64,000 nt of DNA from Nitzschia sp. DOCU1 (taxonomy: Eukaryota; Bacillariophyta; Bacillariophyceae; Bacillariales; Bacillariaceae), in contig OX595990.1 in NCBI GenBank assembly GCA_951394045.1, forward strand, positions 1,736,001-1,800,000, in the 5' to 3' direction. Positions 19,001 through 61,918 of the stretch are shown piece after piece. A model generated the notes under the pieces. It saw only the letters and a list, made by a program, of their open reading frames with translations. It ran no database searches and had not been told where the DNA came from. Position 1 is the first letter of the stretch. Every line of letters starts with the position of its first letter. The translations under genes and the position numbers were made by a program.

Positions 19001-19358
19001 CTACTTGTTGCCGACGTCCGCCGCGTTGGTTAACACGTGCAAACGTGATCGGTACTAGATGACTGGATTTTTGTCGTTTGTTTGAGCCTACAGTTCGACT
19101 ACCTCGAATCGTGTTCAATAAGTAAAGCTCGCGCTCGCGCTGTGCTTCCGCCAGACATGCGTCGAGAGAGCTGAAACTTCGAGATTTCGTTAGTTTAACG
19201 AAATTTCGACTTGCGTGTGATTTTTGCAAATTTTGTGTTGCGCTTGTAACGCTATCGCTATTGTAAAATGATTCCATCTGTTGGACGTCGTCCCTCTGGG
19301 TAAAGCTAGTGTAATCGTTCAATTTACCACTATTATTATTATTTTCACACGTAGTCAC
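16038..19358 (-). CDS. pol: Gypsy Pol polyprotein (protease, RT, RNase H, integrase)
   Basis: A frame of 1106 codons. In order: aspartic protease (LLDSGGSG), reverse transcriptase with VYIDDLLEL, RNase H (EIHTDASHTQLGAVL), integrase zinc finger (HPGETRTEQ...CKSCPTCQ) and the DDE core (LCVDLIGPY, IIYDRGTEFMGEF, NSIIERVHQT). It has no good ATG: the frame is continuous with gag through a single TGA at 19371-19373, so it is probably made as Gag-Pol by stop readthrough. A 53-residue block of the integrase is repeated in tandem. Compared with the outer copy a CGA codon has become TGA at the end, removing the integrase tail. Confidence 0.92.
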   Translation of the reverse strand: MTTCENNNNSGKLNDYTSFTQRDDVQQMESFYNSDSVTSATQNLQKSHASRNFVKLTKSRSFSSLDACLAEAQRERELYLLNTIRGSRTVGSNKRQKSSHLVPITFARVNQRGGRRQQVVTVKALLDSGGSGCLWKKSSASKLKIKTQKATTVFTTMSGSYKCTERVTTQLSLPELHDDRLIEWDFHLADDLGNYDMIIGRDLMQELGLVIDFKAMEVEWDDARMPMKEIDATTATSYHVHERGHVDEMLDRVKEILDAKYEKADARSIAREQAHLSKDEQSKLEQLLAKYQTLFDGTLGRWRGAPYDIELVEGAKPYHARAYPVPKAYERTLRDEVERLCQVGVLKKVNRSEWGAPTFIIPKKDGTVRFINDFRELNKRIKRKPYPIPKIQDLLMKLEGFQYATSLDLNMGYYHIELSPDSKKLCTIVLPWGKYEMQRLPMGLSNSPDIFQEKMGTLFEDLEYVRVYIDDLLELTKGDFDDHLEKLEVIFKRLKDTGLKVNARKSFFARGELEYLGYWITRDGIQPVAKKVEAIHAMKAPTNKRKLRKFIGVVNYYRDMWIRRSEVLAPLSALTSKEAKWQWGPVEQNAFDTMKRIISKQTLLTYPDFNIPFEIHTDASHTQLGAVLSQRGKPIAFYSRKLNPAQTRYTTTERELLAIVETLKEFRNILLGQRIRVFTDHKNLTYKEFNTERVMRWRLLIEEFGPELVYIKGEHNVVADALSRLDLDDRAFPESHLNEFLAGDELPRDAFPLTYKNIASMQNADRALLSKVRTNPRYSVKVYRGGGKKRELIVREDKIVLPTSLQKRCVKWYHEMLCHPGETRTEQTIRQHFYWKNIRGDVERICKSCPTCQLTNRKTIKYGHLPPKAAEIDPWDTLCVDLIGPYKIKQLGSKKTLQLWCLTMIDPATGWFEMVRIANKEAFSIASAAEMAWFTRYPWPQKIIYDRGTEFMGEFRRMVREDYGVMTKPITARNPQANSIIERVHQTIGNMIRTFELQNSEDTESLDGVLAATMFAVRATYHTTMQATPTQLVFERVHQTIGNMIRTFELQNSEDTESLDGVLAATMFAVRATYHTTMQATPTQLVFGRDAILNTRFKANWKLIKE
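16099..16416 (-). repeat. 159-bp in-frame tandem duplication in integrase
   Basis: The sequence starting AACACTAGCTG at 16099 starts again at 16258, so the unit is 159 bp (53 codons). It covers the catalytic-Glu motif ERVHQTIGNM through TPTQLVF. The two units differ at about one base (GGCGTCGC versus GGCGTTGC). The outer element and the plus-strand gypsy lack it. Confidence 0.93.
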
Positions 19359-31474: not shown

Positions 31475-32285
31475 AAAAGTACAAGCTCTAACGGCAGCGC
31501 ACCACTTCTATTGTCTCTGTGGCAATTGACGTGTTTACTCTCTCTCTAGCAAAGGGGTCCCACGAACGCTTTGACTCATTCGAGTGAACTTTTCTCGCTT
31601 TCCCAGTTCTTGCTATCAATAGCAAGAAATAAAAAGTTTATGGCTGTTGTTGTTCAACTCGTAGTAGTCTTCTTCTCCTACCTCTTCTTTCTTCCTTTTA
31701 GTAGGTCGGTAGAAGGGTAGTTCTGAATTCCATCTGGGTTCCCGGCAGTCCATTCACCATCTGTTCATTCCATGGTTACTAGCAGTATCGTATGCTGCAC
31801 GCGCAAGCAAGGATGGAAAGATTGCAAAATCCTTTTCAAGATATCCCACCACTTTTTTTTTTAAGTTCCCCCCGTGCAGAACTTAACGTACCATCGTGTA
31901 CCGGCATTACGGAAAAAAGTTAAGTTCCAAATCAGGGGAACTTAACTGCCTCACCCCTGAAGTAACGACCAATGGTAATTTATGGTTGGACCCCCCTCTG
32001 AATGACAGGGGGGGGGGGCGCATGTCGAGTCCGTGCATTGGATCCATTGGATCCATCATCGGCACGAAAGGCACGAAACGCTGTCCACACGACCCACACA
32101 TTCATTTGACAACAACAACTACTACTACTGGCACCAACCCTCCATCCTGCTCAAAGCAACAAGGGGTGGGACGGTTTGGGTAAATGCTGGTGGCATGTGG
32201 AGAGATAAGTTCACCTGCATATAGGGCCTGCTGTGAACTTTTCTCATGGCAACACCGCCCCTACAGTAACAACCTAAAAAGTATT
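31475..32285. other. Intergenic DNA between Harbinger and copia elements
   Basis: No gene is supported; the short open frames overlap both strands. It contains a small hairpin (CTTGCTAT CA ATAGCAAG near 31611), two AAGTTCC hairpins (separate entry) and a run of G near 32010-32020. Confidence 0.5.
31861..31946. repeat. Two AAGTTCC hairpins
   Basis: TTAAGTT pairs with AACTTAA at 31861-31887. GTTAAGTTCC (31919-31928) pairs with GGAACTTAAC (31937-31946) across an 8-nt loop. The same 10-bp arms recur at 39742-39768, on the other side of the copia element. Confidence 0.85.
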
Positions 32286-39741: not shown

Positions 39742-39768
39742 GTTAAGTTCCACGCCGCGGAACTTAAC
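39742..39768. repeat. AAGTTCC hairpin, 10-bp stem and 7-nt loop
   Basis: GTTAAGTTCC (39742-39751), loop ACGCCGC, GGAACTTAAC (39759-39768). Same arms as 31919-31946. It lies about 344 bp from the copia 3' end, while its partner lies about 340 bp from the 5' end. Confidence 0.88.
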
Positions 39769-46896: not shown

Positions 46897-47363
46897 GAAG
46901 TTCGAGAGGAGAGGCGTCAGAAGTGCCTTCTGTAGCAAAGTAGCGGTGCAGATACTATCGGACCAGGTGCTCTTCGTTTGTTTGTTTCTATTTTCGGCGT
47001 CTCGTCATTTTCTCAAAATGTAAAAATGGGTGGGCGCGAAGAAAGCCCTGAATGATGGAGCCGCAGTGGTCTTGCACCCGGAGGTAGTTATATGAAACGG
47101 GCGAGATCATATACCACTTTCATGGCAATTTTTAGATAAGGAAGTCTCTGTCAACGAAAATTGTGATATGTTGAAAGCCCGCATCTCAAAATTTCACCGG
47201 GACTTTTTATCCAGTAATGTGGATAATTTTTTGTTCCAAATGTCCTGCAAAGTATTCTAGAAAAAAAGTATGTTATATTTGTAATGTTATATTCGTATTG
47301 ATATATAGTAATGTGGTCTGTGCGACATCGTTGGGACGGTCTTGAGGCACATGTGTCGAAGTA
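46897..47363. other. TypA upstream region
   Basis: Intergenic DNA with an AT-rich part (47220-47310, TATATAGTAATG). No gene. The hairpin repeat cluster begins at 47364. Confidence 0.4.
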
Positions 47364-47392
47364 CGACCTATTGCAGAAAGTGCAAAAGGTCG
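47364..47392 (-). repeat. Hairpin repeat P1
   Basis: CGACCTATTGC, loop AGAAAGT, GCAAAAGGTCG. One stem mismatch. On the minus strand it sits in the wider unit ACGTAATACCGACC... Confidence 0.93.
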
Positions 47393-47418
47393 GTATTACG
47401 TTTGTTATCGCAGGAACC

Positions 47419-47483
47419 ATGCAAAAGGCTGAGCAACATTCGCATCTCGACCTTTTGCGGAACGTGCAAAAGGTCGGTAATAC
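47419..47483 (+). repeat. 65-bp copy of the first Helitron intron (contains hairpin P2)
   Basis: This 65-bp segment is identical to the reverse complement of 50710-50774, inside an intron of the Helitron gene. It contains the hairpin CGACCTTTTGC, loop GGAACGT, GCAAAAGGTCG at 47448-47476. Confidence 0.95.
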
Positions 47484-47497
47484 GTGGTAGGGACTGT

Positions 47498-47580
47498 GAG
47501 GATGTTCTTGTCTTGTTCTTTGATAATATTCTTCCCTGATGTGTCTCCCATATCAAATGTTGTAAATCTTCGATTGACTG
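47498..47580 (+). repeat. Patchwork of Helitron-derived fragments
   Basis: 47499-47522 (GAGGATGTTCTT, then TCTTGTTCTTTG) resembles 47739-47763 inside the helicase exon. 47537-47578 (GTGTCTCCC ... TTGTAAATCTTCGATTGACT) resembles 51533-51580 inside the Rep exon. So pieces of two exons have been copied next to each other just downstream of the gene. Confidence 0.7.
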
Positions 47581-47618
47581 AACAAAGAGGCGTCCGTGGA
47601 AAGGAATGACGATTTTGA

Positions 47619-50600
47619 TTATCTTATGGGTGCTGTGGGGAGGGTGCTAATGGTATCATCGCGCGTGTTGAGGAAAACGTTGTATTGGGCAATAATGTTA
47701 TCAAGGGTTTCCTTGTTTTGCTCAGAAGTGTTCATCCATGTGAGGATGTTCTTTTCTTGTTCTTTGGTATATGTCACTTTCCTGTCATTCCCGTCAAGAT
47801 ATGAGGTCCAGGCGTCTCTCTTGTAGACGCGAAGAAACCTTGTCCCGTTTTGTTGGTGTATCATGTCTCTAACCCTTTCTTTTGACATGTTGCTCCCGGT
47901 GAAATAAATTGCTGATGATTGTGGGTCATCATTTGTACCAATTGTTGTACCTCGCGAGCAAGCTGAGTAGAACAACCCTGGGCTGTGGCCTTCGAAATGT
48001 AGAGTGCCAGGGTCAATTATGATCGATGGGGCTTTGAATTTGCGATCAGGTTGATCAGGACCAACTGTAGTTCCTTGGAAGGTATGAATTGTCTGACCAT
48101 ATGCGAGTCGTAGCGGTATTTGTGTTCGTGTGCAGCACATTCTCTGGCAAGAAACTGTTATGGGTGCTATAGGAACGTACGTCGGATGATCTGGAATGAA
48201 GGGGGGGCCTGTGTAGCTTGGGAAGTCAACCAAGACGTATTTTGGGAGATGTTTTGTGTTTGGTGATTCACCTTGGTTGAACACCATATCGATGACAGTC
48301 CCTGGGGTATTGTTGTACAAACCCCATTCTGTCTTGAGGTTCCGACCTGTGAGACAGACCCAGGATTTTCTTGCCAGTAGTGTAATCTTTGGAAGTTGAT
48401 CGTCTTTGAAATGACTTTTATACCTCCCTATGTCCTGAGATCGTATTTTTGCTACTGGATTTTGCGATGAAGTATCAATGTACAGTTGTTTCAAATTGTG
48501 TGCTCGCATTGGTTCGGTATTGGCAAATATGTGGATTGATTTCGATCGAATATGTTGTCGGTCAGTGTTTGAGAATCTGCCATTATCAAGATGAAGGTCC
48601 ATCAGCCTAGAAGCGGACGCATCTGACATCATTCCATTGTATGCTTCTTCTAGTATTTGACGGTAGGTGCCCTCGTTGTCCTGTTGCCGATGATTCCTTG
48701 TTAGTGTTCTGACTTCTTTCCCCATCTGTTTGAATGTCTGCAATCCTTTATAGCACTGGGGGGATACGTCTGCCAATTCTGTCACAAAGCAATCAAATGC
48801 TCCTTTCCCTACAGATCCCAGTTGACCATCGTCTCCTATGAACAATGCTGCGGGTATATTGCCAAGCCCTTCTTTGGCATCAGCGTTTTTCCCGTTATGC
48901 GCCGTTTGTTCGATATAGCTTGCTGTAGTCCCAATGTCTTCAGCCGCCGCCATGCTTCTTTCATCCAGAATTAATAGCACAAGACGCTGGTTTTCTTTGA
49001 GCATCATGTTCATCTTTCGAGGGCTAAGGGCAAGAGGATTTTGTCCCACTGAAAGATGGAAACGGTTATGAATGGTTTTACCTCCGGCATTGTTAGCCGC
49101 ACAACCGGAAGGACATACAACAGTCACACAGTCATCTGTCCCAAAGAGTTCTTTGACAAGCGTAACAAGCGTGTTGATCAAGGTCGTTTTGCCCGTCCCT
49201 GCCCTCCCACGGATTGTGAGTCGCAAAGGCTTGTAGGCTTTCATACCTTCAGGGCTGTTGATCGACTCAACCCATTCCCGGATATTGTCCATGACTTCCA
49301 ATGCAATATCTCGTTGCACACCTTCAAGGTCCTCAAACTCGAATTTGCCACTTGGAGTGCAATGGTTCTTAGGCAAGTGTACCCTGCCGTCATCTTTAAT
49401 TTCTGACATTTCTATTTGTATATTTAGCCAAACGGGAGCCTCGTCTTCATTGAAAGGAAGCTCTGTATGACGTTGTGACCAGTCATAGGAAACTCCAAAG
49501 TCGTAGTCGTAACCTCCCGTCTCTGGAGGCTTCATATTTGTAGGGACAACAGCATAGGCTTCAACAGCTTCCTTTGTGGTTGGGTCAATGTCAGGATCGT
49601 TGTCATCCTCATCGTAGGTGGTGTCTGTTGGCTCTGTTACCATGTTTTCTGCGTTGTATTTGTCTCTCTGATATGCCTGCTTTAAAGATTCCGGGCACTC
49701 CGCTGATAAAAGAAAATACCGCAGCCCTTTTTTGAAATTTGACTTTTGAAGTGGTTCGTTCTTTGACCATGGTTTGTGTATCATTAATAGCATACGGGCA
49801 GTGTATTCAGAGTAAGGGTAAACTGATGTTCCTTTCCCCGGGAAATGGGGGATATATGTTTTCCAAACCGTCTCTGTCTTGAGTTTTCTCCGTGCATGGT
49901 TCTGCATGTACCACGCAAGAAGAGACTTTCGAGGGTGCTGTCAAATGGAATTCATTTTTGTAGAAGAAAATTAGGTGACATTCGCAAAAATTGTTCTATC
50001 CCGACCTTTTGCAGATTCTGCAAAAGGTCGATATGTCGACCTTACCTCAAGGGGGCGCTCATTGTACAATTTGAGAAATCTGTTAGTGCCCTTCGTGCCA
50101 GTATTGTCCAGCCTTGTGTATCCTGAAAGGCTTATTCTTTGGAAATGTTCACTACAGATCCACAATTCGAGCCCTGCGAGTTGCACCATGCATTCCTGTT
50201 TGGAAATCAGCTTTTCCCCAAGATATCTATTTAGGAGTTTTCGTGCAAGTGAAAACAATTCATCTTGGCACCCAGTGACCTCTTCCGCTGCCAAAATTAG
50301 GGCTCGCATAGATGATTTTTCCTCTTCTAGAGTTTCTTGTCCTTTCGAGGCATATGATACAATGTAGTTTGTAACTGTCGCGATATCTTTGGGGTCAGGA
50401 TTTTGAGGGTCACTTTCATACAACAAAATTTTCACGTCACAATTGGCCCTCCACCCATGGAGTAGCGCCATTGAGGAAGGAATGATGTTCCTTCGAGGCT
50501 TTGGAACACGCCGTGCAAATTCAAGCTTCTTATGTCGCCCTTGACCTTGATTTATTATACAGGCATTGTTGTACTTAGGGAACCCCGGGGTATCGCAATG

Positions 50601-52800
50601 CCCGGGTGTTTTCTCAACACCACATCCTGTGCGACAGATCCTTCGTTTTTTGCTTTCCTTTGTTTCCCCCTTGATGCTGGTAAATGTTGTGAGAATCTTG
50701 ATGGTTCAGGTATTACCGACCTTTTGCACGTTCCGCAAAAGGTCGAGATGCGAATGTTGCTCAGCCTTTTGCATACTTACAAATACTTTCGTTTTCGCAT
50801 ACAATTGTTGGTGCACACATGATTCTGCGTGGTGAGTTGAAAATTTATGCCGTCTTCTCTCAGGGAAGAATGCGGTACATCTCCAAGTTTAATGCTAGCA
50901 GGGTGGTTGTCCTTTGATGGCATCTCGTGACATGAAAGGTCAAAATCTTTTGGCAGATTAGCTGTCATTGCAAGCTCTTCCTCAGCCCATTTTTGGTAGA
51001 TCGCAGCCCTTTCATATTCTAAATCTTTGAGAATATCACGCTTGATAGCGTCCTGCATGGTGGCATAAGCTTCCTTTTGCATCTCGAGATTATCGCATAT
51101 GAGAAGACAATGTGCATGTATCTGCCCCCTCCCTGGTGCAAATTCGAATCTTAGCCAATAATGCTTTACTTTGAAGACATTCTTTCCCACAGTATCAAAC
51201 CAATTTTTGACACGAGTCTGGAAAAATTCTTGTATGACCAGAGTGTAATCATGTAGGAGTGATGGTGGAATCTTTCCAGGTTCCCCATTGCTCTGTTGTT
51301 GATCCTTTGCCAGGCCAGGATTGTTTTCAAAAGAACAGCGTTCCTGGAGAAGACGTTTAACGTCGGGCCAATAATGCTCTGCACAGCTTAGGGTCATAAA
51401 CAATGATGGTGCTCCATTTCCCATCAATACGTGGTATTGAATCCACGAATGTATCTCGTCCCTTCTTTGTCGCCAGTAAGCGCTGCTTCCCCGTACCGTG
51501 TTGCCAAAGTAGCAGATCTTATCGATCCATGTTGTGTCTCCCTTCTTTATCAGATCTTGTAAATCTTCGATTGACTTAGGACTGTCATGACCCGCAAAAT
51601 CTCGAATAAAGTATGACCCCTGAGACATGTTGCGTCGTCTCTGAACAAAATTAAGGGCATAGAAACACCAAGACTTATCTTTGGCGAACCTTCCATCTTC
51701 ATAAAAAAGCAGTTTCTTTGCCCAATCTTCGACCTTGATTCGTTTGGATTGGGGTAAATCGTCCCAATCTCCTACCCCCCCAGGAAACAGCCAAGGAAAT
51801 CCCATACTGAAGAGGTGTAAATTCTCGTCGTATTCGCTTAATGCTTGACTTCCAACCTCTGGAAAGCAAATAGTTCCGTGACTATCATTGACTCGTTGTC
51901 CTTGTGGGGATTGTTCTTTTGCAAGTTTTTCCAACGCTTCGATTGTCTGTATGGTATCAATATCCTTTTCTTTTGGTAGACCTGCCGCATGATCATGGGA
52001 AATAATACCGTATACAGCAATGTTGTCCCCCTCATGTTCTCTTTGACCAGGGTCTTCCTCAGGGGAGGACTGTCGGTTTCGTTCCACAATAGTGGGAAGT
52101 AGTACCGCCTCCTCTTCCCCGTCCATCCAGGCAAGATTATCTTCAACTATATCTATATCACTGTAGTGTTTGTTGTACTTCTTGAGCCAAATTAGTGCGT
52201 TCAACACGACGGAACGTCTGATAGTGAACGACTTTTCTTCAATCTGGTTGTCCTTGTCAATGTACCTGCGAATCACCTTGATTGCCTCGACCTTCTTCCT
52301 GGGTAATTCAGACACGAAACCCTCCATTTTTTTGGGAAAACAACACACATGACCCTTTGCTCCGTGCGACCCTCCTTTCAGATATCGTAACGGCACATAG
52401 GTCGATACGCGTTGGATCAGCAACCTCTCCCCCTCACGGAGCACACGCAAGCATTCTGGCACCGTATAATTAACGGTTCCATGTTCGTCAGTCCATGTCG
52501 GTAACCATTCAGGAATGTATCCAGGATTCCCCTTAGATATCATGTGACACTCCTTGCAAACATTCAGATTTTTTCTCAGATCCAGGTTAATAGAAACCAT
52601 ACGGCATATTTTACATCGCTTATGATGTATTTCGGCATTCATTTCCTCAAACAATAGATTTGTGGAATGGGCAGTTTTATGGTGGATATACAAAGAAGAC
52701 CCGTCCTGTGTATCATCGTTTGATGCATCGCTGTCCCCACGTGGACGCTTAATTCGTTTCTTTTTGTTTTGCCGTTTGGCTTTTGAGCGAATGGCATATC
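47619..52800 (-). CDS. Helitron Rep-helicase protein
   Basis: Three exons are visible: complement(50781-52800), (50046-50676) and (47619-49937), joined by 104- and 108-bp GT-AG introns, giving about 1656 codons. The 5' end is open: an acceptor at 52801-52803 implies a further upstream exon I cannot place. Motifs: SLFMTLSCAEHYWPD (Helitron-like N domain), HUH motif GQIHAHCLLI, two-tyrosine motif NYIVSYASKG, then a Pif1-type helicase with GRAGTGKTTL, LLILDERSM, LTRNHRQQDN and AYGQTIHTFQGTT. These drive rolling-circle transposition. All catalytic residues look intact. Both introns carry a hairpin repeat. Helitron ends (5' TC, 3' CTRR) were not found. Confidence 0.92.
49938..50045 (-). other. Helitron intron 2 with hairpin P3
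   Basis: 108-bp intron from GTAAGG to TTGACAG. Exons join as NERPLE/HPRKSLLAWYMQNH with no loss of frame. The hairpin lies 15 nt from the donor. Confidence 0.88.
50002..50030. repeat. Hairpin repeat P3
   Basis: CGACCTTTTGC, loop AGATTCT, GCAAAAGGTCG. Perfect 11-bp stem, inside Helitron intron 2. Confidence 0.95.
50677..50780 (-). other. Helitron intron 1 with hairpin P4
   Basis: 104-bp intron from GTAAGTATG to TTTACCAG. Splicing joins RKRKYF to IKGETKESKKRRIC and restores the Helitron frame. 65 of its bases recur at 47419-47483. Confidence 0.88.
50717..50745 (+). repeat. Hairpin repeat P4
   Basis: CGACCTTTTGC, loop ACGTTCC, GCAAAAGGTCG; flanks TATTAC and AGATGCGA match the other members of the ACCGACC...GGTCGAGAT subfamily. 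Confidence 0.95.
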
Positions 52801-52938
52801 CTGTTCACATGAGAAACAATATTGTTTAGTTTACGGTTATGACAACAAGGGTAGTCCACAATTTCCTACATATCGCAGATATCGCAAGATCCATTCCCTT
52901 GGCAAATATTTCACGAGGTTTGACGAAAAGTCCAATCT

Positions 52939-52967
52939 CGACCTTTTGCAGAAACCGCAAAAGGTCG
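52939..52967. repeat. Hairpin repeat P5
   Basis: CGACCTTTTGC, loop AGAAACC, GCAAAAGGTCG, flanked by CT and AGGTTGATG (second subfamily flank). Confidence 0.95.
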
Positions 52968-53003
52968 AGGTTGATGTTAATGTTTGACAAATACTCCACA
53001 GTA

Positions 53004-53032
53004 CGACCTTTTGCAAAAACCGCAAAAGGTCG
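53004..53032. repeat. Hairpin repeat P6
   Basis: CGACCTTTTGC, loop AAAAACC, GCAAAAGGTCG, 65 bp after P5. Confidence 0.95.
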
Positions 53033-53067
53033 AGGTTGGTGGGTCGCGACATGAAAGTAAACGAGAT

Positions 53068-54366
53068 CTAGCCTCTCCCGTACACAAACATCTTGAGGCC
53101 ATCGGGGATGCGACCTTTCTTCACATCTTCCTCGGTGACGTCTTCTGATGGTGCCATGTACTGGAGGGCAGCAACGATTCCCTCCGATGTCAAAACCTTG
53201 TCGAGGGACTGATGTTCAACAATCACGCAATTATCTTCCAATGCACCCTGCAACATGGACCAGTACTTTCCATCGGTAACAGATCCATCGGAAGGATTGG
53301 AAGGCGTAAGCATACCACTGGCAGCCGATGCAGGATCAGAATTCCCCATGTAGGCAATCTTGTAGACCTCCTGGACCTGCCTGTCCGTGAGTACAGGCCT
53401 GAAGGCTCCAAGGAGATACTTTTGAACCTGTGCATTGACTACGGCCTTGGGAATGCATGCCAAAAACACATCCTGATAGAGCTTCATGGACCCATTTCTT
53501 CCCTTGGTTGTCATAGTGGCAGGTTTGTCATCGCCATTAGGGTCTCGCAACCGGACCGATTTCAAATACGAGAGGAAGTTGTTGATGTGACCTTTGCCTT
53601 CGGGGCTGTCTTTAAAGATATTGAATACCTCCACCCACTTGGGAGGACGATGAAGCCAATGAGTGAACTTCCTGGTCGGACTGATGAAGTCGATAACAGC
53701 CAAACGAACACAAGCAAATCCTGGCTGGACCTTTACCAGATGGATGACGGCTTGCATTCCGGAGTTTTTAACCGACTCTCTCATCCTCTTGGCAAAAACA
53801 TCAGATGTCCCCGGAGGGTCGGGAGACAATTGCCTTGCAGTTTTAACATGCGGTAGTTCAGGCAAACCAGAACCATCGAAGATTTCAGCCTCCTTGCACG
53901 TGGCCTTGGGAGGTTTCTGCAAGACAGGCAGGTCATTACCAAACTCTGTGTCCTTGCCAACAGTCTCATTTGGAGTTCCTCCATCAACAATCAAAGGTGC
54001 TTTCGCTTCATCTTGTTTTCGCGGGGTGACAACAGCTGCCATTTTCATTCCATCGTCTTCCACATCCTCCGTCGTCTTCATCATGCCTTCCTCCTCTTCT
54101 TCTACCAACAGTGCCGCCTCGGCAGCTTCCTTTGTTGGAAAACGGACAATTTCAACCCTTGCATTTGGGTTGTCACCAATAATCTTCCCCCACTCAGGCA
54201 TGACATCTTCCGCACTTGGAAGCAAAAGCAACTTTCCATCAACCCTCAAACAGGTTTGCCCATCATCTCCTTTGCCAGTCGCAGCCTTATCTGAAGGAGC
54301 CCCCTTCTTACCTTGCTTTGCAGCCTTTGCTTTAGCAGATTTTGGTTTGTGTTTCCTGGTCTCCAT
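53068..54366 (-). CDS. Hypothetical 432-aa protein
   Basis: Single exon from ATG METRKHKPKSAK. The first 40 residues are Lys/Ala-rich (a nuclear-type basic tract). Then a short folded unit (LRVDGKLLLLPSAEDVMPEWG...ARVEIVRFPTKEAAEAALL), an acidic low-complexity linker, and a larger C-terminal domain (HLVKVQPGFACVRLAVIDFISPTRKFTHWLHRPPKW through PDGLKMFVYGRG). I do not recognise the family. It lies head to tail with the Helitron gene, and two hairpins separate them. It may belong to the same mobile unit or be a host gene. Confidence 0.65.
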   Translation of the reverse strand: METRKHKPKSAKAKAAKQGKKGAPSDKAATGKGDDGQTCLRVDGKLLLLPSAEDVMPEWGKIIGDNPNARVEIVRFPTKEAAEAALLVEEEEEGMMKTTEDVEDDGMKMAAVVTPRKQDEAKAPLIVDGGTPNETVGKDTEFGNDLPVLQKPPKATCKEAEIFDGSGLPELPHVKTARQLSPDPPGTSDVFAKRMRESVKNSGMQAVIHLVKVQPGFACVRLAVIDFISPTRKFTHWLHRPPKWVEVFNIFKDSPEGKGHINNFLSYLKSVRLRDPNGDDKPATMTTKGRNGSMKLYQDVFLACIPKAVVNAQVQKYLLGAFRPVLTDRQVQEVYKIAYMGNSDPASAASGMLTPSNPSDGSVTDGKYWSMLQGALEDNCVIVEHQSLDKVLTSEGIVAALQYMAPSEDVTEEDVKKGRIPDGLKMFVYGRG

Positions 54367-54902
54367 GATTTGATTTTATGAGCAATCGAGCCAACCAGCA
54401 AATATTGACATACCAAATTCTCCCGTATCTTCCCGAAAAATTATCTGGTTGGTACATTATGGGTCCGTTGGGCCTGCTGTTTAGTCAAAATGACCAATAA
54501 ATTTTGCCTGCCGCTCTATGACTGTATTGTGTCCCAAAAATTTTCCCACAAATCATAAGAGTAAAGGGCAGGCGTGCCTCAACGTCTGTCAAAATTTGAA
54601 TACAATGGTGATAGAAGATGGTAACATAGAAACAGGAAGCCTTGTCATTTCCCTATTAAGTCAATCTATTAAAGCCTCGAACGGAACTGTGATAGCAGTT
54701 TCATTGTCGGTTCGACAACACATGCAACAAAAATTCTCTCTACCACCAGGTCTGCCAGCAGCTGAAATTTTCGGTCAGATACCCCCCTTCCTCACCTCGC
54801 CTTACGATCCTTTTTGGACTCAAACATTCGTGACAATGAAAACAGCCAGAGCCAGAACAAAACCACGACAGCACATTCCTACATCCGTCAAAACAGCCGA
54901 AA
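54367..54902. promoter_or_regulatory. Divergent upstream region of 432-aa gene and cyclin
   Basis: A 138-codon plus-strand frame at 54518-54934 overlaps the cyclin start in another frame and is probably leader sequence. No motif was assigned. Confidence 0.35.
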
Positions 54903-55992
54903 ATGCCGAATGCTCCGATATTGAGAAGATCTGAACGACTGGCAGCAAAACGAAGAAGGCATAAGTCTTGGAAGATGTCAGATGCCACAGCCAGCATCCC
55001 CTCACATCCAGCACAAATACAACCTTTACGGCAACTGAAGGATTTCCATGCGAAGGAAGATCAAGATCCTGAAGATGTAGCTCAACTCTTTCAACACCTG
55101 TTTCAAAGAGAGGTAACGTCCATGCCAATCCAATACATGGAACTGCAGCCTTCGCTGAACATGTGGCTCAGAGAATTTCATATTGATTGGCTGGTCAATA
55201 TCCATGCCAGGTTTCGTCTTGAACCTCAAACCTTGTTTCTTTCTGTCAACATTCTTGACAGATTTCTTTCCCGGAAGACTATTACTGTCAGAGAACTCCC
55301 TTTGGCGGCAATCGTTGCCTTATGGATTGCTACGAAATATGATTCAAAGTTTCCTTTTGAAGTGAAGGATTGCCAGTACGTGCTGACACGACACAACGAA
55401 ATCCTGTACACCAGGGAGGAGATTGTTGACATGGAGACGGAAATTGCCATGACCTTGGGTTTCACGTTCACAATCCCAAGTGGACACACCTTTCTACATC
55501 GTTTCCTCGACGTAGCAGATGCCCCAGAAGACGTAAAAGCCCTATCCAGCTATTATGTGGAAAGAATGCTTCAGGATTACACAATGTTATCCTTCAGACC
55601 ATCGCAAATTGCTGCTACTGCAGTTTGTCTTGCATATTGCAACCCTGACAGAAAGGTATTTGATGATGTCCCGAACAACACAGATCCAACATTACATCCA
55701 AGGCTGGTACGTAAAATATCATACTCATTATCACTACCCCCAATTCTAACACCTTTTCAAGCCACAGGTCATACTGGACTATACAGGTTATCACATTAAC
55801 GAAATAGAACGGACAGCAAAGGTGATGACCTCCATAATGGGAGCAAAAGAAAAGGAACAACCGATGACCATGGTCAAAGAATTATATGCAACTGTTAGAC
55901 GACTGAGAGTATCAGTGCTATACAGAAACCCACAGGTGGAACATTTAAAATCCATCCCAAAATGGGACGACCTAGACCCTGTGACAGTATAA
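54903..55992 (+). CDS. B-type (mitotic) cyclin
   Basis: Exons 54903-55706 and 55768-55992 with a 61-bp intron, giving 342 aa. The N-terminal cyclin box contains LNMWLREFHIDWLVNIHARF, QTLFLSVNILDRFLSRKTI and AAIVALWIATKYDSKFP. The C-terminal box contains TLGFTFTIPSGHTFLHRFL and SYYVERMLQDYTMLSFRPSQIAATAVCLA. The N-terminus is short and basic (RRSERLAAKRRRHK) and shows no clear RxxLxxxxN destruction box, so its degradation may differ. Mitotic cyclins activate CDKs such as the one at 9015-10145. Diatoms have many cyclins; which subfamily is not settled. Confidence 0.92.
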
Positions 55993-56140
55993 TTCACGTT
56001 AACCAGATAGCAAATGCATTATCTCGACGAAAATGGCCACCACGGCAATTAAACCGACTAAAACGGCGATTACGCTCCCCCGCTTTTAATTTTACGGGGC
56101 AACACCCGACCGCAATAGGTCGAATTCAAGGGATCTATCT

Positions 56141-56169
56141 CGACCTTTTGCTGATTATGCAAAAAGTCG
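56141..56169. repeat. Hairpin repeat P7
   Basis: CGACCTTTTGC, loop TGATTAT, GCAAAAAGTCG; one stem mismatch. Confidence 0.93.
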
Positions 56170-56197
56170 AGGTCAAAGGGCATCTGAAAGGGCATCA

Positions 56198-56226
56198 CGA
56201 CCTTTTGCAGAAGAAGCAAAAGGTCG
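56198..56226. repeat. Hairpin repeat P8
   Basis: CGACCTTTTGC, loop AGAAGAA, GCAAAAGGTCG; perfect stem, 57 bp after P7. Confidence 0.95.
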
Positions 56227-56252
56227 AGGTTGAAGGGCATCGCGACCTCTCT

Positions 56253-56281
56253 CGACCTTTTGCTGATTATGCAAAAGGTCG
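56253..56281. repeat. Hairpin repeat P9
   Basis: CGACCTTTTGC, loop TGATTAT (same as P7), GCAAAAGGTCG; 55 bp after P8. Confidence 0.95.
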
Positions 56282-56388
56282 AGGTTAAAGGGCATCCCTT
56301 CTGAAAAAGGTCGAGGTGGTCGTCGATCCCAAGATATCTATGATTTGCGTATAGTACCACCGAAAACAAAACAATGTCATCCGAAATT

Positions 56389-57666
56389 TTACGGCAAAAC
56401 AATGGGTTCATAATAAAAAGAGCTCATGATCGCTTCTTCCGGCAATTCCACAACTGCTTTTGCAGATTTAAAATCGCCTTGGTTGATCATTGATGCAATT
56501 GTACCGCCCTTACTCCAATCAGACCCAGAGATGCCATTACAAATGTCATCAATCTTTCTCCAGTATTCTTCGTTCCAAGTCACCGTCTTTCCACCTTCTT
56601 CACGCTCCGCCTGTACGGATGGCGGATACTTTGCCGTCACAAACTCAAAGATAGCCGCCTCTAGGGCAATTGCAACAGTGTCTGTATCGACACCAACAAC
56701 ACAATCTATATGTTGTAAACCCCAATCCACAGCTTGTTGCATGAACTCAACACCCAAATTGCGAGGGTCATAAGAGGGAATCTGCCCACAAGGAGGCAAA
56801 ACCCAATCAGGCATTTCGTTTCTTATCACCGGCGGTTTCACCGGCGCTTTCTCGACAGCAGAAGTTTTTGCAACGACGCTAGTAGAGCTCCTCCCACCTG
56901 CTGCTTCAAGGAGATTCCTGAGGAACCTACCCTTAGGCTTCGGTCCTGATTGTTTTTTGAACACCACGGCCTCTTTACCGGAATTACCATTTGTCCCGTC
57001 TTTTGTTCCAGAACGTGCAACGACACCAAATGCGACACCCTTTGGCGATTGTTTTTCGTGGACCACGGGATTGGTTTCAGGTGTTCCGATAGATGCAACC
57101 TTGGAAACAGTAGTGCTGGTCCCACAATGTCGAATCTCGACCTTTTGCGGAAAGTGCAAAAGGTCGGTATGACGTGGCAGAGAGTGTGAAGATGTTCGTT
57201 TCTTGTTCTTTACTACAGGATCATCCATTTTGCGAGTAGATTGCGAAAGATTCTTTGGCCGGAACGATGCTTGATTCCCGGGTCTCTTGCAGTCGTAAGA
57301 AGGATCTCGTGGCATCTCATCCGCCTGTGCATTCGGCTTCCAACCATCGATAATATCCCCCCTAACAGATTCGTAATGAATAGAGAGGGCTTCAACGATT
57401 CCATCGAACAACACCACGTCCGTCACAATGGCCTTAGACTGCAACAAATATTTAATCTTGATTTCGGGCATGAGCCCCCAATGGACCTTTGAAACCATGG
57501 AAGCGAGATCGTCAAAAACAGCAACAATATCGTTTTCGTCCTTACGTAAGATCGCATCGCCCCACCTCGTCAGAACATCGTCCATGATGCTGACGCTTCT
57601 CTTGTATTCGAAGTCCGCAACATCCCACGGGGTCTCATTCCTTGCTTTCTTTCCTGGACGTGACAT
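56389..57666 (-). CDS. Hypothetical 425-aa protein containing a hairpin repeat in frame
   Basis: From ATG 57666 (MSRPGKKARNE). The N-terminal part looks helical (RRSVS-like start, MDDVLTRWGDAILRKDENDIVAVFDDLASMV). A low-complexity basic middle and a C-terminal acidic domain (VDTDTVAIALEAAIFEFVTAKYPP; EEYWRKIDDICNGISGSDW) follow. Around residues 165-180 the hairpin unit P11 is translated as TDLLHFPQKVEI with no stop; it could instead be spliced out. I do not recognise the family. It converges on the cyclin. Confidence 0.65.
   Translation of the reverse strand: MSRPGKKARNETPWDVADFEYKRSVSIMDDVLTRWGDAILRKDENDIVAVFDDLASMVSKVHWGLMPEIKIKYLLQSKAIVTDVVLFDGIVEALSIHYESVRGDIIDGWKPNAQADEMPRDPSYDCKRPGNQASFRPKNLSQSTRKMDDPVVKNKKRTSSHSLPRHTDLLHFPQKVEIRHCGTSTTVSKVASIGTPETNPVVHEKQSPKGVAFGVVARSGTKDGTNGNSGKEAVVFKKQSGPKPKGRFLRNLLEAAGGRSSTSVVAKTSAVEKAPVKPPVIRNEMPDWVLPPCGQIPSYDPRNLGVEFMQQAVDWGLQHIDCVVGVDTDTVAIALEAAIFEFVTAKYPPSVQAEREEGGKTVTWNEEYWRKIDDICNGISGSDWSKGGTIASMINQGDFKSAKAVVELPEEAIMSSFYYEPIVLP
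57138..57166 (-). repeat. Hairpin repeat P11 (inside a coding frame)
   Basis: CGACCTTTTGC, loop GGAAAGT, GCAAAAGGTCG. The 90-bp surroundings on the minus strand (AAAGAACAAGAAACG ... CCACGTCATACCGACC ... GAGATTCGA) also resemble the P2 surroundings. Confidence 0.94.
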
Positions 57667-57796
57667 CGCAAACCTCCTCCACCAGGCAGGGAGCACACAT
57701 CGTTGCCAGCCGCGACGATTTATGAACGACGAAGGTACCGAGAGGGACGCCGGCACTTCCGAACACGCCCACACAGCTGTATTCAACGATCGTCCC

Positions 57797-57930
57797 TTAA
57801 ATAACGATCCTTCCGTTGACTGTCACGATTACCTAAGTAACAATCCTTCCGCCGACCGTCACGATCAAATAAGTAACAATCCTTCCGTTGACTTTCACGA
57901 CCACATAAGTAACAATGTCACGACCACCTA
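57797..57930. repeat. 36-bp tandem repeats, about 3.5 units
   Basis: Units share (G/A)ATCCTTCCG(T/C)(T/C)GAC, then TCACGA and TAAGTAAC. They lie between the divergent 425-aa and 1036-aa genes, so they may be part of a shared promoter. Confidence 0.8.
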
Positions 57931-57995
57931 AGTACAGAATACCCACATGAAAATACATATACAACCCTTCAATAAAACATACAAACAGTAATACA

Positions 57996-60900
57996 ATGAT
58001 AAACCTTAGCGATGAAAGCCACAAGACACAACAAATCTTGCCCCCAGGAAAACAAACATTTCCGCCGTCGACACAAACCACCAACACATTTGACCATCAT
58101 CCGAAACGATCACAATTGGAAACGACGACAATCCCCACCATGACTACAACGGAGGTCACGACCGACTACAATAAAATCCTCTTTTCGGACGAGATGGAGA
58201 GCAAATTCCTCATTTACGAACAAGGCTTTGGTCCTGACAAGACCGGCGTCTTGAAACCATCAGCTCACGGAAAGCCTGCCTTGATGACAGCACACAATGA
58301 GGCGCATAAGCGTATCAAGCATTACCTTGACGGCAGGAAACAGAAGACCACATTCGTAGAAGGGAAGAACTCTTTCAGTCTTAGATATGACAGTAAGTAC
58401 CATTGTCCATCAACGACATTGCTGCGACAACGAATTCCCTGCAACGTAATACCGACCTTTTGCACTTTCCGCAAAAGGTCGAGATACGACATACGAATTC
58501 CCTTCCACGTCATACCGACCTTTTGCACTTTTCGCAAAAGGTCGAGATACGTCATGCAGCGGGAGCACAACCTTATGTATTCTTCAAAACGTGCCCTTCA
58601 TAGCCTACACTCACGAATCTCATGTCCACATGTCCTTTCGTTGACCAGCCGAATATCACAAGCTAATTGACAGAAATGTCAATGAGTATTCTAAGCTTGT
58701 CACCGAGCCAAATCGTATCTTTGAAAATGACCAACTGGCTCTCGTGGTAAGCAAAAAAAAAGACTTCTACGAACAACCAAATGTTGCTCTTTCGCCTTTT
58801 GCATATTGGCTACTACAAGAACAGGATACTATGGGACTCGGAGTACTAGTATCACCCCATGTCAACCAACGCCGAACTGAGCAGATTGTATTCCAGAAAG
58901 GGAAGGAAGACCTGACGATGAAGCTCTTGAACGGGTCGGATGAAAGCGATCATATGTGGCTTCAAAACGGAATCATTGTCGTGTTACCTTATGTTTTAGC
59001 CAAAGATCCCAATCCCTACGCGCCGACAAAAACGCACCTCGATCACCTCAATTCGACAGCATCAGTATCCTGGCAATACCCGGAAAATGAAACACGGGGC
59101 CAGGTCGGGTTGATAGTCAAAGGAGCCGCTGTCGGGCGACCCACAAACAGGGTATTCACGGGCCTTGCAGGATTCTTCGGGTATCACCTCGATGACAACA
59201 GGCATTTCAAGATAGGAACCACCGACAACAAAATCGATATGGAAATGCTCATGGAAAAGATCCTGAGGACGCCTATTTCTTCTATAGCGGACTTGAATCG
59301 ACTCCTAGACAGCCTGTGCTTCCACTTCAGATACAAACAGGAAGACATTGACCCCAACGACGACGACGCAAAGAGTCGATTCTCCTATGCCATTCGTCAC
59401 TTTTCCGCATTCTTCAGGATGATAACCCCCCTCCGTCTTGCGGTTATTGAGGGCGGTCACCGTTCGTTTCTACTGAACCGTGTCATCCAAGGCTACACAC
59501 ATACAACGACAGTACCACTACCTGCTCCGTGGAACAAACCGTCCCACGCGACATTGCCATCGACGGGAACGCTGGTGGCAAGGATCACGATACGCTTCAT
59601 TTACCTCCACGACAATAAGGCCCGTGATGAACATTACACAATGACAGGCATTGACGATAACTACACCCCCAAGGATTTAGAGACATGTCGTGATTACAGC
59701 AAAAGAACGCAGGATTTCAAGGAAGAGGTCTTCATTGACGACTACTCCCAGATTCTCGGAGAAACGCTAAAGCAAATCACAACATTCTTCGACAATGACA
59801 AGACTTACTTCCTGACGGATAAGGAACAACTGTACGGAGATACGAAGGCGAGCTTTGGCGGAAGATTCCGGGACATCAATGAATTCTTCATTAACAAGCT
59901 TTTCAGGAAGAAATCGTGCTGTGTGCCACACACAAAGGACAACCTGCAGCGAAAACACGACGATGCACTTAGACTCTTCGTCCAAAATGACAAGGGAGAT
60001 CTGCTGCCCACGCTCTTTGGAAGAAAGAAAATTATCACGCCTGCCTACCCAAGCACAATGGAAGACACTCATGACCACAAATACTACAGGAATGACGACC
60101 CTGTCGTCCCAGACAGACTGTCAAACAAAGGCCAATTCCACCTTTACGTGGGCATCTGGTTTATAAAAGTATGTCTCATCAAGAAGACAACAAACGATGC
60201 CGTCCAAAACTTCTTTGGCAACCACAAGTTCACCCAACTCCGTCTTGCGAAGTGGATGCACGATGCCATTATACTCCCTGTCGAACACATAGTCAAGCAC
60301 CTGGTGCAGCTCAAAACAAAGAATAAAGGTGACAAACGAAAGGAAAAACTCAAGAACCTTCTGCGTTGTACCGCTCTCGAGATTCACCTTCAAAATCTGT
60401 CCCAATTGGATCTTCCTCTCAAATACGTAGACGAAGAGATTGACGAAAAGGAAGAAGAAAGACTTACGATCCGACAACACATACTCAATTGTTACGGAAA
60501 CAAGGACATACGTCATCTACTTCGGCAACAACAGGATGCCGGCAGGACAGCGGGCACAGACAGTGATGACCCATATCCAGCACCAACCCTGGCTGCGCTA
60601 TGTGCGTTGTATACGATTTACATCCGCAAAACCATAACAGCTGATCCCTTTGCTGATGTCTACAGTTGGTTGGAACAATCTGCTGGAAACCTAAAGAAGG
60701 TACACATGGACAAAATCGAAGAACTTCTCCGCATAACCGATCTGACAAGAGTCTTCCGGGAACACAAGGTGCTTTCTTTCGTAGACTTTGTCAAAACAAA
60801 GATTACCCCAAACAACATGCCGGCAGAGCCCATCATATCCCCCACCGATGACATCTCGACCACATCAGACGACGAACAAAGGGAAAACAACGAAGACCAC

Positions 60901-61362
60901 GCAAACGATGAAGACGACCCAAACGATGAAGCATACTCAAACGATGGAGACGACGTAAACGAAGACAACGAGGCTGATGACGCGCATGACACACCCGTCA
61001 GACCAACAAAGAAACGAAAGCCGAACGAAAGAACACCAACACCGCGCAAGGCCAGAGAACTCGACGTCGCCTCACGGACGGGACTTGAAACGGTTATTGC
61101 CAGTCTCAATACAATTCTCAAAGTAAAGACGTCCAAGAACAAAGATATCAAGAGCGCAACAGTCGACCTCAAAGCCAACAAAGACCTTTGTCTTCGTTTC
61201 CTCAACAGAGCACACAACCTCGACATACAATACATCGGAGAACAATTTCTCATACAGGAAAACGTCCCCGGAACGCAAGCAGACCTCGCCGATGCACAGG
61301 ATAACAACACCGGCAACGACAACGAAAACGACCAAGACAGCGACATCCACAACGACAATTGA
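57996..61362 (+). CDS. Hypothetical 1036-aa protein
   Basis: Exons 57996-58392 and 58649-61362, joined as SLRYD/TEYHKLIDRNVNEYS across a 256-bp GT-AG intron that holds two hairpins. There is a large folded region to about residue 780. A motif LRLAVIEGGHRSFLL (near residue 397-403) resembles the (D/E)GxHR signature of ParB/Srx- and DGQHR-type proteins. The region from about 820 is acidic and Asn/Asp-rich (NEDHANDEDDPNDEA), followed by a basic nuclear-type tract (RPTKKRKPNERTPTPRKAR). The function is unknown; a DNA-associated role is a guess from composition. Confidence 0.75.
58453..58481 (+). repeat. Hairpin repeat P12
   Basis: CGACCTTTTGC, loop ACTTTCC, GCAAAAGGTCG. Loop is the reverse complement of the P11 loop. 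Confidence 0.95.
58516..58544 (+). repeat. Hairpin repeat P13
   Basis: CGACCTTTTGC, loop ACTTTTC, GCAAAAGGTCG; 63 bp after P12. Confidence 0.95.
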
Positions 61363-61918
61363 CCACGACCTTAATGACAGCACCTTACCTAACAGATAAC
61401 ATTCCCTTATTCATTTACCACACAATCCCGACCTTTTGCTTTTTCTGCAATAGGTCTGACTGCTCGTCTCTTCCATCGACATAGCTTCATTGGCAGAGCC
61501 ACACATATGCAAAACAATACAACATCCATTGCCACGACAAACACAGACCTATTGGCAGAGCCACCCCAAATGCACCTATATGGTGTCGCAGACGTGTCTT
61601 CCCCATGTCGTGTGATCAGCAAGAATGATCAGCAATCAGTACCCACTGCGGCGTGAGGGGTCCCCCTATTTGCCGGAGGCACACCATACCCTCCTGCCTA
61701 CCCCTCACGCCTGGCTCCGCGCGCTTGACGGGACCACCGCACCCAGGACCACCTACCTTAGCGCCACTTGTAGTATCGTACGTACGAGTACCTGGTAGCA
61801 TCATAACGTACCTTATTATCATAGTACTCGTACTATACCTACCGGTAGCGTCGTCGCTCGGCCTTCTGCGACAAGCTCGCCTGTCGTGCGACCAGATAAA
61901 TAAGATTGCCGAATATGA
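61363..61918. other. Intergenic DNA with hairpin P14
   Basis: Contains P14, a direct repeat of ATTGGCAGAGCCAC (near 61488 and 61550), and GTACGTACGAGTAC / GTACTCGTAC inverted motifs near 61780-61835. No gene is supported. Confidence 0.5.
61429..61457. repeat. Hairpin repeat P14 (degraded)
   Basis: CGACCTTTTGC, loop TTTTTCT, GCAATAGGTCT; two stem mismatches. The 7-nt loop length is kept. Confidence 0.85.

Follow-up and report, generated by a model that had tools for sequence, protein, structure and literature searches.

Among described transposons, those closest to the one analysed here are the Helitron2 elements, or Helentrons. According to the cited portions of the literature, these combine Rep and helicase functions with an asymmetric terminal inverted repeat and a first base T, and their RepHel gene may run in the opposite direction (PMC3627910, PMC5148889); some are known to carry extra genes, e.g., one for a SET-domain protein in Phytophthora (element of 14 kb), and others are non-autonomous copies containing tandem repeats (PMC4067079). 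A palindrome inside a Helitron has likewise been described, namely the 3' hairpin of Helraiser (PMC4778049). We found a large element resembling these in the diatom Nitzschia sp. DOCU1 (GenBank assembly GCA_951394045.1, contig OX595990.1, positions 1,736,001 to 1,800,000 of the forward strand), within a stretch of 64,000 nucleotides that is hereafter called the window. Judged by its predicted Rep and helicase (RepHel), the element is a Helitron, and it also encodes a cyclin and three orphan proteins of 905, 435 and 477 amino acids (aa). An earlier note on the window had described thirteen hairpins as a free-standing dispersed family. A stand-alone repeat of this kind is ruled out, since every copy of the window motif that we found in the genome (34/34) sits in a copy of this one Helitron-type element. 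The hairpins are real and constrained, but instead of a hairpin repeat we regard them as the probable cis-acting sites of a Helitron lineage that is large, gene-rich and non-canonical. From the sequence evidence we give a probability of roughly 0.5 to the reading that they are family-specific palindromic recognition sites of the element, probably bound as DNA by a protein that the element encodes.

The pattern CGACCTTTTGC-N7-GCAAAAGGTCG matched 13 places in the window with at most three mismatches, exactly where the note had placed them, and chance matches averaged 0.00 across 100 dinucleotide shuffles. The stems are perfect in 10 of the 13, again as described, with one mismatch in two palindromes (47364 and 56141) and two in one (61429). 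The copy labelled P10 is indeed only a decayed half-site, near 56303, and the remark that none was noticed in the first 47 kb also holds: the sole match there, at 26147, has five mismatches and a 16-nt gap (search with up to five mismatches and gaps of 0 to 39). The palindromes are as follows, with the strand set by the T at spacer position 5 (see below) and with gene anatomy (introns and exons) predicted from open reading frames (ORFs), splice-like motifs and homology.

47364 to 47392, minus strand: P1, 3' of the helicase ORF, one stem mismatch
47448 to 47476, minus strand: P2, 3' of the helicase ORF
50002 to 50030, minus strand: P3, in a predicted intron (about 50045 to 49938) between the middle and helicase exons of RepHel
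50717 to 50745, plus strand: P4, in a predicted intron (about 50780 to 50677) between the Rep and middle exons, opposite to transcription
52939 to 52967, minus strand: P5, in the gap separating the 435-aa and Rep ORFs
53004 to 53032, minus strand: P6, in the same gap as P5
56141 to 56169, minus strand: P7, with one stem mismatch, in the gap (3' to 3') that separates the cyclin ORF from the 477-aa ORF
56198 to 56226, minus strand: P8, in the same gap as P7
56253 to 56281, minus strand: P9, in the same gap as P7
57138 to 57166, minus strand: P11, within the 477-aa ORF, in a middle part without a match in the relative L029 (see below)
58453 to 58481, plus strand: P12, in a predicted intron (about 58393 to 58648) before the main exon of the 905-aa gene
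58516 to 58544, plus strand: P13, in the same predicted intron as P12
61429 to 61457, plus strand: P14, with two stem mismatches, 67 bp beyond the 3' end of the 905-aa ORF

The spacer measures 7 nt in 13/13 window palindromes, and the sharp peak at this length that had been predicted for a genome scan was found (20/20 exact-stem matches, with spacers of 4 to 14 nt permitted). The spacer sequence is less free than had been supposed. Palindromes are present in both orientations, and the widely differing loops had been listed in both, so that there are fewer distinct ones (GGAACGT/ACGTTCC is one loop and GGAAAGT/ACTTTCC another). Once the copies are oriented, position 5 is T in 13/13 and position 6 is C in 11/13; in P3, T5 and C6 appear whichever strand is read, and the stem extends into the spacer to give 13 bp with a 3-nt loop. 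Between the 13 copies, the mean pairwise difference is 1.4% and 4.0% for the two stems, compared with 46% for the spacer and 53-54% for the flanks (10 nt on either side). Adding nine less related copies gives 2.0% and 5.6% for the stems, 43% for the spacer and 52-55% for the flanks. Together with the copying of P4 from P2 described below, these figures agree with the proposal that selection and/or copying acts on the palindrome itself. A known RNA family was ruled out for the hairpins, as Rfam gave no match at gathering scores in the window. Outside the element, the window holds two more perfect palindromes, at 31918-31947 and 39742-39768 (GTTAAGTTCC, spacers of 7-8 nt).

The genome searched comprises 52.1 Mb in 63 contigs (written here as C with a number); at spacer 7 with up to three mismatches it yielded the 34 matches, and the reversed pattern yielded none. 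All 13 window palindromes fall inside the element, whose bounds are set by the points at which homology to copies on C15 and C1 ends and the flanks become unrelated.

47056 to 61771: the whole mobile element, a non-canonical Helitron of 14.7 kb, with left end TGGAGCCGCAGTGG and right end GCGCCACTTGT
61643 to 61660, plus strand: right-end motif CCACTGCGGCGTGAGGGG
61713 to 61718, plus strand: GGCTCC, which forms an asymmetric terminal inverted repeat with GGAGCC at 47057-47062

The end motifs occur at 37 genome places each (0 for reversed controls), and element copies were defined by 30 pairs of ends on the same strand and within 25 kb. These range from 0.6 to 21 kb and total 180.6 kb, or 0.35% of the genome. 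Four copies were bounded by hand from homology (C24, C1:4893k, C1:5543k and C60). End-paired copies hold 24 of the 34 matches, and the other 10 lie in three hand-bounded half-known copies or fragments. For this particular sequence, the copies are thereby confined to duplicates of one segment, an outcome that the earlier note had counted against its own proposal; the wider pattern of palindromes is not so confined, as shown by the relatives below. Eight of the end-paired copies measure 0.6-0.8 kb and resemble miniature inverted-repeat transposable elements (C7:2551065, C9:967589, C10:2359998, C11:724184, C11:2049984, C13:1977254, C27:44398 and C6:3446148). In one further element copy, a 6.4-kb insertion (C1:4064641-4071065) splits the helicase end with a 7-bp overlap corresponding to window 47640-47646.

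Divergent relatives of the 905-aa and Rep proteins occur in the same genome, and we read four such loci, L028 (C2), L029 (C1), L030 (C8) and L031 (C24), in which gapped palindromes with shared arms were sought (the strict search). Counting the window motif as type 1, this search found six palindromes of type 2 (GTTAATGG-N6-CCATTAAC) in L028, eight of type 3 (TTTCGTTA-N3-TAACGAAA) in L029, or 13 with looser repeats, and five of type 4 (TATTGTAC-N3-GTACAATA) in L030, where a 6-member family forming a 49-bp tandem array ranked above the palindrome family used. As controls, four 10-kb stretches of the window gave 3, 2, 2 and 2, and eight first-order random resamples per locus gave at most 2. The paired stem changes that the earlier note had named as support are present between element families, where the whole palindrome differs, and absent among the 13 copies. 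Genome-wide, 35 of 41 type-2 matches fall in element copies (12 matches for the reversed control). The corresponding figure for type 3 is 25/25 among the matches listed and with one other repeat omitted; 81 places were counted, of which 50 were listed and 31 unplaced, and 25 listed places with the spacer GTT/AAC were omitted as this other repeat. Within the 30 end-paired copies alone, types 1 to 4 score 24/34, 33/41, 25/25 and 9/35. The window itself contains TTTCGTTAGTTTAACGAAA at 160-178 and 19185-19203, which is the type-3 motif with a constant spacer, once per copy of the other repeat family that accounts for the 25 omitted places.

The places of the palindromes are also comparable among families. 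L029 has the gene order of the window (905 gene, 477 ORF, cyclin and 435 gene, with Rep further along the contig) and carries palindromes of other sequence at window-like places, i.e., within the first 905-gene intron, beyond the 3' end of that gene, and in the cyclin/477 gap. Those of L028 occupy the gap between 435 and Rep, an intron homologous to that of P3, and the region 3' to the 905 gene. Some places are unmatched: L028 has none in the P4 intron, and L029 has palindromes in a head-to-head gap. The distance from the left end to a palindrome is 308-361 bp for three copies of type 1 and four of type 3, and 484 bp for a type-3 copy that is 1 kb long; in the type-2 and type-4 copies measured, the palindromes lie farther inward. 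Our results suggest a separate recognition site, with a separate reader, for every element family. Beyond this genome, the stems with spacers of 3-14 nt matched 0 viral contigs. They did match two contigs of one metagenome-assembled genome of Thermoleophilaceae (L033:1450-1482 and L034:5482-5514; GC 71%) with exact stems and 11-nt spacers, within a longer palindrome GTTCGACC...GGTCGAAC. These were set aside, as they show no homology to the element and about 0.2 chance matches were expected by our estimate; they are probably unrelated to it.

The reading of the palindromes as DNA sites rests on their fixed spacing, their constant half-sites, the tolerance of one-sided mismatches, and their presence in copies without reported genes. 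Among the latter, a 5.1-kb end-paired copy on C3 (4.0 kb read as L032, C3:1933301-1937300) consists mostly of 150-bp and 172-bp units. In its array at L032:1197-3495, the 150-bp unit is repeated 12.7 times and the 172-bp unit 2.2 times; the units carry GTTAATGGACGCTACCAAAAAC or a close variant, and no stop-to-stop ORF in L032 exceeds 155 aa. Tandem arrays of type 2 or type 3, with units of ~130-170 bp, lie in end-paired copies at C1:4951308-4952082, C1:5137335-5146002 and C3:4244608-4247991, and four type-4 motifs lie within an end-paired copy at C1:2715k. None of these four copies (C1:4951k, C1:5137k, C3:4244k and C1:2715k) gave a 905, Rep, 435 or cyclin match in gene searches, which score best candidates only, so that the absence of a gene from a copy is no proof. 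Such copies favour a role of the palindromes in cis as DNA, qualified by the tandem repeats known in non-autonomous Helentrons from the cited part of PMC4067079. A copy on C8 with both ends and palindromes matches the 905-aa protein and not Rep, helicase, 435, 477 or cyclin, and because it matched this protein alone of the genes tested, the 905-aa orphan would be the first candidate reader.

In the mechanism that we propose, every palindrome would be bound in duplex form by a dimeric protein that the element encodes, and sites would have changed along with their readers as the families diverged. Multiple bound sites would coordinate the element, either in gene regulation or in the assembly or maintenance of a rolling-circle form. 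New sites would come from templated copying inside the element, and for P4 this can be followed directly. Its segment forms a 68-nt inverted repeat (47419-47486 / 50707-50774) that is 99% identical to the P2 region, and the place of P4 holds ~20 nt of other sequence in two intron-keeping copies and at the deletion junction of a third; P4 is therefore a recent templated copy of the P2 region. Templated copying may have spread the other palindromes too. If one protein does read the palindromes, the families of this genome are natural site-reader pairs, in which self-recognition by a eukaryotic transposon becomes directly testable.

Several observations weigh against recognition sites bound by an element protein. 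All eight end-paired copies shorter than 0.8 kb lack listed palindrome matches (8/8), so the sites are not required for every transposition. L031 gave two palindromes only, of the L028 type; most palindromes of types 2, 3 and 4 are imperfect; and the genome-wide signal of type 4 is weak, with 9/35 matches in element copies and a reversed control of 11. In the older copy at C1:5543k (86% identical over the first 460 bp), two comparable palindromes are without a clear excess of stem conservation. The two head-to-head gaps of the window element contain no palindromes, which is odd for operators. With regard to the candidate reader, searches of the 905-aa protein revealed no DNA-binding domain, and predicted folds were useless (pLDDT of 37 for a 296-aa part of the 905-aa protein and 38 for the 435-aa protein).

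The main and still live rival is that the palindromes act as RNA, i.e., as transcript stem-loops, in introns and 3' untranslated regions, to which a protein of the element or of the host binds, with a role in splicing, export, stability or self-marking. Their placement in the window speaks for such a role: 12 of 13 lie in inferred introns (P3 and P4 of RepHel, P12 and P13 of the 905-aa gene) or in gaps beside gene 3' ends (P1, P2, P5-P9 and P14), P11 is in the 477-aa ORF, and the head-to-head gaps are empty. Spacer orientation agrees with transcription in 12/13, with P4 as the exception, P3 fitting either way and P7-P9 counted with the nearer 477-aa gene. Four window hairpins fold at -13.9 to -19.4 kcal/mol. 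However, five palindromes of the relatives fold weakly (-3.6 to -8.6 kcal/mol), and one-sided stem changes show little wobble bias (by a visual count on the presumed transcript strand, 10 G-T vs 7 A-C, omitting 8/13 type-3 copies, for which no strand was assigned). The arrays in copies without reported genes and the L029 palindromes in a head-to-head gap also count against it, and we consider the RNA explanation possible while leaning against it.

It is also conceivable that, during rolling-circle replication, the Rep nuclease uses the palindromes as hairpins of single-stranded DNA, which would serve as additional terminators or as start sites for the second strand. In favour of this, a Rep is encoded by the element, a palindrome recurs 308-361 bp from the left end in seven of the copies measured, and a 3' hairpin serves as terminator in the Helraiser Helitron. 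The palindromes are not terminal, though, and their orientation is not common to one element strand. Deletion junctions in other copies do not fall on palindromes and show no pattern, and hairpin-driven breakage, considered on the basis of such junctions, was dropped. Moreover, in the cited portion of the Helraiser work, activity was lost when the loop was altered, and ~90% of it remained when the stem was exchanged (PMC4778049), the reverse of the conservation seen here, and we regard this explanation as improbable. Least probable is that the hairpins are functionless and spread within the element by template switching: the copying of P4 into an intron that lacks it in three other copies, the 55-65 bp spacing of P5/P6, P7-P9 and P12/P13, and a 25-nt insertion at a stem in the C1:5543k copy would suit this, but the stems have remained almost identical next to spacers and flanks in which about half of the positions differ, and relatives hold palindromes of other sequence at homologous places.

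The genes of the window element are as follows.

47619 to 49940, minus strand: helicase part of RepHel, PIF1-type, stop-to-stop ORF (PF05970, 1.2e-11)
49971 to 50705, minus strand: middle part of RepHel, without Pfam match
50777 to 52804, minus strand: Rep part of RepHel (Helitron_like_N; PF14214, 1.3e-23; PF20209, 3.7e-19)
53068 to 54375, minus strand: 435-aa orphan protein, conserved among relatives
54840 to 55799, plus strand: cyclin (PF00134, 9.5e-32; best solved match cyclin B1, 5.5e-26)
56389 to 57822, minus strand: 477-aa orphan ORF
57951 to 58392, plus strand: probable first exon of the 905-aa gene, with an L029 match before the main exon and a splice-like motif
58645 to 61362, plus strand: orphan protein of 905 aa (main exon), first candidate reader of the palindromes

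The 905-, 435- and 477-aa proteins have no Pfam match at E 0.001. An EGGHR stretch of the 905-aa protein recalls ParB-like motifs, and Pfam gave no such match. In the homologue search for this protein, a single-sequence query returned nothing and a three-sequence alignment returned one entry, 99% identical (best 7999 word-sharing candidates scored). Relatives of the element proteins were sought in viral and prokaryote collections and none was found; the nearest relatives of the Rep, 54-58% identical, are on metagenome contigs. Tyrosine-recombinase sites were ruled out: a scan of 10 ORFs at E 0.001 returned nothing that matches a recombinase, and none of the junctions falls on a site. A 36-bp tandem repeat (TAAGTAACAATCCTTCCG...) was seen at window 57798-57934, in and beside the 477-aa/905-aa head-to-head gap.

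The cyclin is also present in type-3 relatives with the same gene order, at 48% identity (C1:604806-605345 and C3:2793458-2793997), and further relatives contain stop codons (C9:434890-435408 and C5:1135548-1136219). Retention of the cyclin, and of its place in the gene order, by a second family suggests that the host cell cycle may be tracked or altered by these elements. More tentatively still, the cyclin, the orphan reader and the dispersed palindromes might together make up a self-contained replication or maintenance system of a rolling-circle transposon lineage, in which site and reader co-evolve and each family recognises only its own DNA.

With regard to classification, the Rep domain followed by a PIF1-type helicase in neighbouring same-strand ORFs places the element in the Helitron superfamily. 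For three copies that were read at both ends, inspection of the flanks by eye revealed no target-site duplication. The ends of the element, TGGAG and CTTGT, differ from the 5'-TC/CTRR-3' of canonical Helitrons (Helitron1). In its first base T and in a RepHel that runs opposite, the element is similar to Helitron2. The asymmetric inverted repeat (GGAGCC from base 2, GGCTCC 53 bp before the right end) measures 6-8 bp depending on the family, compared with 8-15 bp in Helitron2. The terminal hairpins of Helitron2 were not found in four terminal stretches compared with shuffles (z of 0.31, -0.04, 0.35 and -0.91), and because of this and the repeat length we did not file the element as Helitron2. 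No Pfam match to the Helentron endonuclease domain, which follows the helicase, was obtained in the helicase ORF.

In the open-licence papers searched, we came across neither a cyclin carried by a Helitron nor internal palindromes that are specific to a family. The palindrome of Helraiser is a single one of 19 bp, 11 nt from the 3' end, with an important loop, in contrast to the many internal palindromes with conserved stems described here (PMC4778049). Palindromes or hairpins of Helitron2 and Helentrons are likewise terminal or subterminal in the sections cited, and those of Helitrons in the literature examined lie at or near the ends; the present element has 13 internal ones, of family-specific sequence and at conserved places, and a cyclin in addition. 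Outside the Helitrons, ParB-parS, EBNA1 repeats and subterminal transposase sites all provide a replicon with many fixed-spacing palindromes that are specific to their reader. The palindromes of this element are alike in number and spacing, with a reader that is putative. Bacterial REP sequences, as dispersed hairpins tied to the HUH-type RAYT nucleases, offer a further parallel, but they are scattered across the host genome, whereas the palindromes described here are confined to their element.

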